Shown here in pieces: positions 26,064 to 37,358 of a stretch of DNA of 48,713 bases. Origin of the DNA: Candidatus Gastranaerophilales bacterium (GTDB lineage: Bacteria; Cyanobacteriota; Vampirovibrionia; Gastranaerophilales; Gastranaerophilaceae); NCBI GenBank assembly GCA_944325585.1, contig CALVAS010000004.1, forward strand, positions 1 to 48,713. The letters run 5' to 3'. How positions within the stretch are numbered: position 1 is the first letter of the stretch; every line of letters begins with the position of its first letter. Both the position numbers and the translations under genes were made by a program. The notes under the pieces were generated by a model, which saw only the letters and a program-made list of their open reading frames with translations, was not told the DNA's origin and searched no databases.

Positions 26064-26858
26064 ATGAAAAGTATTGATATGACTGGATTTCAGGGGGGGG
26101 GGGCAACCCGCAATAAAGCTCCTGAGTGCGATTTATCCCAATCTGATTCGCACGCATTTACGCTTGCGGAAGTTCTTATAACACTCGGTATAATCGGAAT
26201 CGTTGCAGCAATGACGTTGCCATCACTAATAGGCAAATGGCAGAAGAAAGCAACCGTAACCAGATTAAAGCGAACATATACAGTTTTGGCGCAGGCGGTT
26301 CAGCGTTCGATAGCGGATTACGGAGATCCTTCAGGCTGGGGAACCGAAGGTTATTATGATAGTGAAGCGACCCCTGAAAATCTGCAAAAAATAGTTGAAA
26401 GTTTTTCCTCAACATATATAGTACCATATCTGGCCAAGGTCAAAAAAGCGGAATGGGGTTCGTTTGCTGATTTGGGTTACAAAGAGATAAAGGATGGAAG
26501 TTATGCTGTACCGATTGTTGCAAGAGACGGGAAAATGATTATTTTAAATGACGGAACAGTGCTTCAGATAAGGATGTCAACACACAATTTGGGAACTGAT
26601 GAAGATAGAGATGACAGATATACGAGTATAATTATTTATGCTGATATAAACGGTCTAAGAGGACCGAATTGGGTCGGAAAAGATATTTTTATGTTTATGG
26701 TGGATTCAAAAACCGGAAAGTTTGATTTTTACGGATATCACGGATATGACATAACAAGAGAGCAGGTATATTCAACTTGTAAAGCGAATGCGGTAACATG
26801 CGGACGATTAATAATTATGGACGGCTGGGAAATCAAAGATGATTACCCGTGGTGGTAG
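26064..26858 (+). CDS. Prepilin-like protein 1, with in-frame poly-G tract (candidate phase-ON)
   Basis: The 264-residue protein has a long leader (about 31 residues), then the type IV prepilin/pseudopilin cleavage region HA/FTLAEVLITLGIIGIVAAMT with the usual Glu at mature position 5. A globular domain follows, ending in DGWEIKDDYPWW. The processed protein would go to the inner membrane and into a pilus or type II-like fibre. The ATG at 26064 has AAGGAG 9 nt upstream. Codons 10-14 contain an 11-base G run (26093-26103), encoding QGGGA; any change in its length not a multiple of three would abolish the product. It stands alone between HU and an exported protein. A paralogue lies at 36490-37287. 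Confidence 0.85.
   Translation: MKSIDMTGFQGGGATRNKAPECDLSQSDSHAFTLAEVLITLGIIGIVAAMTLPSLIGKWQKKATVTRLKRTYTVLAQAVQRSIADYGDPSGWGTEGYYDSEATPENLQKIVESFSSTYIVPYLAKVKKAEWGSFADLGYKEIKDGSYAVPIVARDGKMIILNDGTVLQIRMSTHNLGTDEDRDDRYTSIIIYADINGLRGPNWVGKDIFMFMVDSKTGKFDFYGYHGYDITREQVYSTCKANAVTCGRLIIMDGWEIKDDYPWW
26093..26103 (+). repeat. Poly-G tract (G11) in prepilin-like gene 1
   Basis: Eleven consecutive G bases early in the coding sequence of an AT-rich genome. Slippage here would switch the gene off and on. At this length the frame is open. Confidence 0.9.
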
Positions 26859-36329: not shown

Positions 36330-36358
36330 TTGCCAAAAGGATGATAATATTATATAAT
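36330..36358 (+). promoter_or_regulatory. Strong predicted promoter of prepilin-like gene 2
   Basis: TTGCCA (36330-36335), 17-bp spacer, TATAAT (36353-36358). The start would be about 36365. AGGAG (36382-36386) and the ATG at 36395 follow, which supports 36395 as the true gene start. Confidence 0.65.
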
Positions 36359-36394
36359 CAAAATGGAGAAGATTAAATTAAGAGGAGATATAAA

Positions 36395-36472
36395 ATGCTG
36401 GAAATGCACGCTATGCTTGAAAAAACGGGGGGGGGGCACCCGAGAATAAGCTCCTCAAAGGAAAATTTTTAG
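36395..36472 (+). other. Out-of-frame 5' leader of prepilin-like gene 2 (candidate phase-OFF)
   Basis: This short reading frame has the promoter, the Shine-Dalgarno AGGAG and the ATG, and encodes MLEMHAMLEKTGGG before the poly-G run shifts it. It then reads HPRISSSKENF and stops at TAG (36470-36472). If the run had 11 G instead of 10, the frame would continue as APENKLLKG into the prepilin frame at 36490 with no stop between. It is therefore the true start of the downstream gene, disconnected by one base. Confidence 0.75.
36427..36436 (+). repeat. Poly-G tract (G10) in prepilin-like gene 2
   Basis: Ten consecutive G bases about ten codons after the ATG. One G fewer than in prepilin gene 1, and here the frame is broken. 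Confidence 0.9.
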
Positions 36473-36489
36473 GATTTGTATTAGAATTA

Positions 36490-37287
36490 TTGAGGTTTAA
36501 AAAGCCGATTTTACTCTGTCATCCTGAGGGTGAAACCCGAAGGATCTATAAAAATGGCATACAAGAGATTCTTCGCTTCGCTCAGAATGACAAAAAGTGC
36601 GCATTCACTATGGCAGAAGTTCTGATAACCTTAGGGATAATCGGCATTGTAATAGCAATGACGCTACCATCGATAATCGGAAAATATCAGAAAAAAGTAA
36701 CAGCTGAACGTTTAAAACAGACCTATTCAATATTGAGTCAGGCTTTTTTACGTTCTCAAGTTGACAATGGCGAGCCTAGAGAGTGGAATTTGGAACGTTA
36801 TTCTAAAAATGATTCAGCTGCACTAGAAGAAATTTGTAAGCTTTATATTGAACCATATCTACAAATGAATGGCAAACCAAAACGCGGAAGTCTGAAAAAT
36901 GCGGGCTGGAAAAGTTATCATTTATTATCTGGTGAAGTTTCAGAAAGACCAAGTATAAATAATTCTGCGATGTATATAATGCCTCTTGCAAACGGTGTAT
37001 CGATTATGCTTAGTTTTAAATCAGATGCTACAAAACTCAATGGTTTATTGATATATGTTGATATTAATGGACCTGCCGGTCCAAATATTTCCGGAATTGA
37101 TGGGTTTTGCCTTTCATTAAATTTTGAAAATGCACAGTTGAGTTTTTGGAACTCAGACCAGCCAAGGGATTATATTAAACAAAATATTTGTACTCGTAAA
37201 ACAGGAGGGGTAAATACCTCGTTGGGGTGTGGTGCTCTAATATTTAAAGATAATTGGGAGATAAGGGAAGATTATCCTTGGAAATAA
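36490..37287 (+). CDS. Prepilin-like protein 2, frameshifted from its start (candidate phase-OFF)
   Basis: The open frame encodes a leader with an embedded repeat, then CA/FTMAEVLITLGIIGIVIAMT (prepilin cleavage region with Glu5) and a globular domain ending DNWEIREDYPWK. It is a clear paralogue of the 26064 gene, with shared middle and C-terminus (YVDINGPAGPN versus YADINGLRGPN). The TTG at 36490 is not a credible start: it has no ribosome binding site, and the only in-frame ATG before the globular domain lies inside the cleavage region. The real start is the ATG at 36395, out of frame because of G10. In this state no functional product is expected. Adding one G would give a protein of about 297 residues. 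Confidence 0.82.
   Translation: MRFKKPILLCHPEGETRRIYKNGIQEILRFAQNDKKCAFTMAEVLITLGIIGIVIAMTLPSIIGKYQKKVTAERLKQTYSILSQAFLRSQVDNGEPREWNLERYSKNDSAALEEICKLYIEPYLQMNGKPKRGSLKNAGWKSYHLLSGEVSERPSINNSAMYIMPLANGVSIMLSFKSDATKLNGLLIYVDINGPAGPNISGIDGFCLSLNFENAQLSFWNSDQPRDYIKQNICTRKTGGVNTSLGCGALIFKDNWEIREDYPWK
36517..36592. repeat. REP-like imperfect inverted repeat inside the prepilin leader
   Basis: The left arm begins TGTCATCCTGAGGGTGAAAC and the right arm ends CTTCGCTTCGCTCAGAATGACA-like (36571-36592); reversed, it reads TGTCATTCTGAGCGAAGCGA. This resembles a palindromic element widespread in bacteria. It is read in frame as CHPEGETRRI...EILRFAQND within the leader peptide. Confidence 0.75.
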
Positions 37288-37300
37288 AGCAAAGTAAAAA

Positions 37301-37335
37301 CAAAGCGAGCTTATATAAAATATAAGCTCGCTTTG
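37301..37335. terminator. Bidirectional terminator between prepilin gene 2 and trpS
   Basis: CAAAGCGAGCTTATA (37301-37315) pairs perfectly with TATAAGCTCGCTTTG (37321-37335). On the minus strand TTTTTAC follows, so it ends trpS well; it can also serve the pilin gene. Confidence 0.82.
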
Positions 37336-37358
37336 TAATTCAAATTATTTTATTCAAT

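Follow-up and report, generated by a model that had tools for sequence, protein, structure and literature searches.

Can the number of G residues in a leader decide whether a type IV prepilin gene is read? The question is raised by the second of two prepilin genes in the window, i.e., the whole 48,713-nt stretch of DNA that was analyzed, where an ATG and the pilin downstream of it lie in different frames on either side of a G10 tract. Our answer, to which we assign a probability of about 0.78, is that this gene (hereafter the window gene) would be one of a large number of dispersed type IV prepilin genes in which the length of a leader G tract decides whether translation reaches the pilin.

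Start, tract, and pilin of the window gene

The original prediction held that the frame opened by ATG 36395 runs through G10 to a stop at 36470 with the pilin in another frame, and this was reproduced with all its coordinates (Table 1). The peptide of this frame as sequenced is MLEMHAMLEKTGGGHPRISSSKENF, followed by the stop. A single added G was said to join the two frames without a stop, and it does, since G11 brings the pilin into frame and the linker is open in the pilin frame. The 167-nt linker contains no stop in that frame and 3 and 6 in the other two, and the pilin frame remains stop-free from the tract through to 37287. The absence of a usable downstream start was also borne out: TTG 36490 is in frame without a convincing Shine-Dalgarno site, and ATG 36610 lies within the mature N terminus, so that no processable prepilin would be made from it. 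In the assembly, the window gene is OFF at an offset of -1, i.e., one G short. The proposed near-consensus promoter is present, with an 11/12 match, yet the region has 7 promoter-like matches in total, close to the shuffle mean of 5.4. Gene 1, located 10 kb upstream, is one open frame and is ON with G11, as had been claimed. Runs of at least nine G gave 5 overlapping matches in the window (2 tracts) against 0.07 expected from dinucleotide shuffles, and an Rfam search of the window matched no known structured RNA.

Table 1. Positions in the window of gene 1 and of the features of the window gene.
Feature	Position	Strand	Remark
Gene 1, prepilin	26064..26858	+	G11 (26093-26103), in frame (ON)
Promoter-like TTGCCA-17-TATAAT	36330..36358	+	11/12 matches; consensus match only
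Shine-Dalgarno GAGGAG	36382..36387	+	Complementary to CTCCTC 36451-36456
Leader frame as sequenced	36395..36472	+	ATG 36395, second in-frame ATG 36404, TAG 36470-36472
G10 tract	36427..36436	+	Pilin in frame with ATG 36395 at G11 (or G8/G14)
Linker	36437..36603	+	Open in pilin frame only; part of prepilin leader when in frame
CTCCTC, complement of Shine-Dalgarno	36451..36456	+	AGCTCCT motif kept in genus
Dispersed repeat TCATCCTGAGG...CAGAATGACA	36519..36593	+	In frame inside linker, CHPEGETRRI...EILRFAQNDK
Mature type IV pilin-like protein, 227 aa	36604..37287	+	Predicted prepilin cleavage before F at 36604
17-bp stem-loop, terminator-like	37300..37336	not assigned	3' of window pilin gene

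The window prepilin has a class III leader with predicted cleavage at A^FTMAEVLITLGIIGIV and Glu at position +5, and this N-terminal motif is kept across the alignment despite family scores under the cut-offs of both PF07963 and TIGR02532, which the gene 1 protein exceeds. In an AF2 model of the window pilin (pLDDT 70.5), a helix covers residues 3 to 55 (53 residues) and is accompanied by strands. Solved type IV pilins gave weak profile matches to the N-terminal segment (E of 0.008 and above), and a Foldseek search of the model against the PDB gave no significant match. The motif, the modeled helix, and the weak profile matches fit a putative pilin or pseudopilin. The window pilin has no LPXTG motif, and no sortase was found among the neighboring genes, which we take from their translations to encode an LptB-like ABC ATPase and a tryptophanyl-tRNA-synthetase-like protein. 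The genome encodes a prepilin peptidase and several T2SSE-family (PilB/PilT-type) ATPase homologues, and the window protein may be assembled into a pilus.

Within the genus of the window, the Shine-Dalgarno sequence is complementary to a motif just past the tract (AGGAGCT/AGCTCCT; here GAGGAG/CTCCTC). The AGCTCCT motif is read in differing frames depending on the locus (NKAPE and ENKLLKG) and is thus conserved as nucleic acid. The mean duplex value in the genus was -10.66, compared to -10.18 when partners were permuted (0/500 permutations), a support for locus-specific matching that related loci can inflate. Such pairing could mask the ribosome site. It is absent in G022 and G016, and a family-wide hairpin was consequently rejected in favor of a secondary, genus-level feature. 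As for the element at 36519 to 36593, it is presumably a common dispersed repeat. This dispersed intergenic repeat (TCATCCTGAG...CAGAATGACA) forms an in-frame part of the prepilin leader in many tract pilins (HPE...QNDKK), and repeat-bearing linkers amount to 11/23 in G003 and 5/13 in G012.

A recurring leader architecture

The genome that carries the window, a Gastranaerophilales-type draft of 1.76 Mb in 105 contigs from a gut relative of the cyanobacteria, was read in the stretches around tracts and pilins. It contains 42 tracts of at least seven G, most of them in one recurring architecture that comprises AAGGAGCT, an ATG, a leader of about 20 to 33 nt, the G tract, a linker of 12 to 300 nt, and a pilin starting with FT(M/L)AEVLI. 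Approximately 52 type IV pilin-like N termini were found, of which 32 have this ATG-Gn-pilin leader, and few tracts of at least seven G lie away from pilin genes. Among relatives, represented by one genome per species and by draft assemblies throughout, the number of tracts of at least nine G ranges from 0 to 115 per genome. In another family of the order, a radical-SAM-like gene with a CNLKCEYCYLD motif (L133 in G041, L161 in G046) has G10 and an open frame in one species and G11 and a broken frame in the other; it is possibly a phase-variable enzyme.

Across eight genomes, 197 tract loci have a pilin motif, paralogues included, and at 190 of them no stop interrupts the pilin frame between tract and pilin. 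In the seven exceptions, the motif is far downstream, possibly in a neighboring gene, or the break is genuine (e.g., L389). When the linkers were reduced to 80 non-redundant ones by a k-mer filter, the 2616 codons of the pilin frame included 0 stops, whereas the two alternative frames together had 470 (P of about 10^-33 by frame permutation). Many linkers are only 12 to 30 nt long and leave no room for another start. An internal start was considered and rejected, given that a Shine-Dalgarno-like site with an in-frame start occurs in only 12 of the 80 and that many linkers are too short. As the pilin frame is open and such linkers cannot hold a second start, translation of the pilin would, most simply, begin at the upstream ATG and proceed through the tract. 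The sequences thus strongly support a prepilin frame gated by G-tract length far beyond the pair of genes initially noted.

At the window gene, translation would begin at ATG 36395 and pass through a short leader and the tract, decoded as poly-glycine; ribosomes would reach the pilin in frame only if the tract length is right modulo 3. Replication slippage would alter this length and thereby switch the gene, presumably in a reversible manner.

Tract length differences and the excess of one extra G

The closest named relative of the window gene, among the matches listed, is in a Candidatus Gastranaerophilales draft, CALVAU010000062. The pilin most similar to that of the window, with 90% amino acid identity (L103/L166/L258), has G12 and is in frame; compared to it, the window has G10 and one extra A ahead of the tract. 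Between the two, dN/dS is 0.10 over 226 codons, indicating that the window pilin has been kept functional under purifying selection. A decaying pseudogene, or a plain sequencing error at this one locus, would also present a broken frame in the assembly, but both are highly improbable: decay was rejected on the dN/dS measured against a relative with a joined frame, and the architecture is matched at about 190 other loci.

Tract length differs by one G between species at loci with near-identical flanks (L041 G13 versus L194 G12; L042 G12 versus L311 G13) and between paralogues with near-identical flanks (L066 G12 versus L031 G11; L363/L361; L387/L383), while other such pairs have the same tract length. 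These data fit slipped-strand phase variation in the prepilin leader, with replication slippage as the probable cause. Between the lptB-like and trpS-like genes, G012 (L306) and G011 (L290) likewise have a tract pilin in this slot, with 44% and 37% identity to the window pilin, respectively, and the 90% relative occupies a different slot, in G003. With comparable patterns at other slots, pilins appear from these alignments to be exchanged or to diverge fast inside conserved slots, in which the leader and tract persist. At several loci (L040/L319, L043/L312, L042/L311, and others), the flanking genes align at 80 to 90% between species, and the enclosed pilin often does not.

ON and OFF were assigned with a simple score that picked the start with the best Shine-Dalgarno support, supported starts being present in more than one frame at few loci. 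Among 140 loci that were left non-redundant by a k-mer filter, 107 were one G too long (+1), 21 were ON, and 12 were one G short (-1), the window gene being a member of this rare -1 class. Shuffling lengths among loci within genomes gave a mean of 67 loci at +1 and a maximum of 85 in 5000 trials. The modal tract is G13 for loci that are ON at 12, G12 for those ON at 11, and G11 for those ON at 10, with a G12:G11:G13 ratio of 50:4:1 in the ON-at-11 class. Since the modes shift with the reading-frame class within genomes, a preferred tract length is not the explanation. G019 was left out of the count; its loci (L321-L350) are nearly all G10 at offset -1, unlike those of other genomes, and its sequencing technology may differ. 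The original prediction had viewed one ON and one OFF gene as the expected outcome for independent contingency loci. Although both states were correct, independence is not supported by the counts: tract length follows the frame class, and the offsets depart from about one third each through a strong common bias. Independent states are nonetheless not a strict criterion for contingency loci, because selection can skew them.

Simple ON/OFF switching gives no reason to expect this strong excess of +1 over -1 loci (107 versus 12). A rationale is offered by Bifidobacterium breve, in which both G-tract-switched pilus genes rest one G too long and are turned ON by omission, and in which omission at bbr_0113 in mice exceeds addition at least fourfold (PMC9187656). 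By analogy, +1 may be the OFF state closest to ON via the commonest slip. The usual resting state of the set would be +1 (OFF), from which loss of one G turns a gene ON.

Programmed slippage would instead make +1 the working state, some ribosomes or RNA polymerases slipping by -1 to give a low constitutive level of pilin; ON genes would yield more pilin and -1 genes such as the window gene little. We consider this unlikely. It would account for the 107:12 split between two OFF frames that should be equivalent, for the 50:4:1 ratio of the ON-at-11 class, and for +1/+1 orthologues under purifying selection (dN/dS of 0.07 to 0.13), and after slipping by -1 on poly-G, glycine tRNA could presumably pair perfectly again. 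However, a 7-base slippery site would be enough, making 10 to 14 G a mutational hazard, no stimulatory structure is common to the genera (the Shine-Dalgarno pairing being absent in G022 and G016), and close copies differ in tract length. Moreover, the +1 resting state of B. breve is explained by replication slippage alone (PMC9187656). A three-level switch, in which the +1 set leaks a low, mixed level of pilin by -1 slippage and replication slippage sets genes to full ON or full OFF, seems just as doubtful.

The bias could also be technical if real tracts were mostly in frame and short-read assemblies added one G or, at the window gene, called one too few. Poly-G reads are error-prone, and 14 of the 42 tracts of at least seven G in the genome of the window are no more than 120 bp away from a contig end. 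Among these ends (G000; e.g., L059 1-120, L053), one is garbled, with extra G/C past the tract, and resembles the "G's end" artefact reported together with a wrong annotated length in B. breve; tract lengths from draft assemblies can be incorrect (PMC9187656). The systematic difference of G019 (G10, offset -1) suggests technology effects as well. Yet an assembly bias would need to produce exactly +1 in seven separately assembled genomes, and close copies vary in both directions, which makes this explanation improbable, more so than programmed slippage. Gating by replication slippage remains our preferred reading.

Known switches and biological meaning

As in contingency genes, a 5'-proximal coding repeat is present in which unit changes join or break the frame, and its length varies between species and between paralogues whose flanks are nearly identical. 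Neisseria pilC, a type IV pilus gene, undergoes phase variation through a poly-G tract located in its signal-peptide region. PilC, encoded in one or two copies, is a pilus-tip/adhesin protein and not a pilin; the two systems share poly-G in the signal-peptide region, whereas only the window gene codes for a pilin-like protein. The Opa genes of Neisseria are likewise scattered paralogues for surface proteins, and each is switched by slippage in a separate repeat within its signal-peptide region, but they number about 11, encode outer-membrane proteins, and use pentamer CTCTT repeats in the leader (PMC3960869, PMC3745409). The nearest parallel lies in the sortase-dependent pili of B. breve (bbr_0113 and bbr_1889), for which G-tract switching was demonstrated experimentally (Penno et al. 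2022, PMC9187656). There too, in a gut commensal, a G tract (9 to 12 in B. breve) links a start/leader ORF to a pilin ORF without a usable downstream start, the resting state is one G long, and omission of one G gives ON. B. breve differs in having sortase/LPXTG pili, in belonging to the Actinobacteria, and in carrying two loci per genome, compared to dispersed single type IV pilin-like genes here, with 32 tract loci and up to 115 tracts of at least nine G in the genome of a relative. The window locus works like the B. breve locus without being a member of that system.

Among the papers searched, none dealt with phase variation in Gastranaerophilales; type IV pilus genes have been reported in termite-gut relatives (PMC5877343). 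If our reading is true, the surface repertoire of these uncultured gut bacteria would rank among the largest described that are switched by slippage, and it would consist of pilins at conserved chromosomal slots where the pilin can differ between species. Most of these pilins would then be missed or truncated by gene annotation. In quantitative terms, a +1 resting state specific to the frame lies outside what simple ON/OFF models foresee. Together, the genes could give the bacterium a randomly varying surface, making it testable whether a random mix of pilins aids gut colonization or phage escape.
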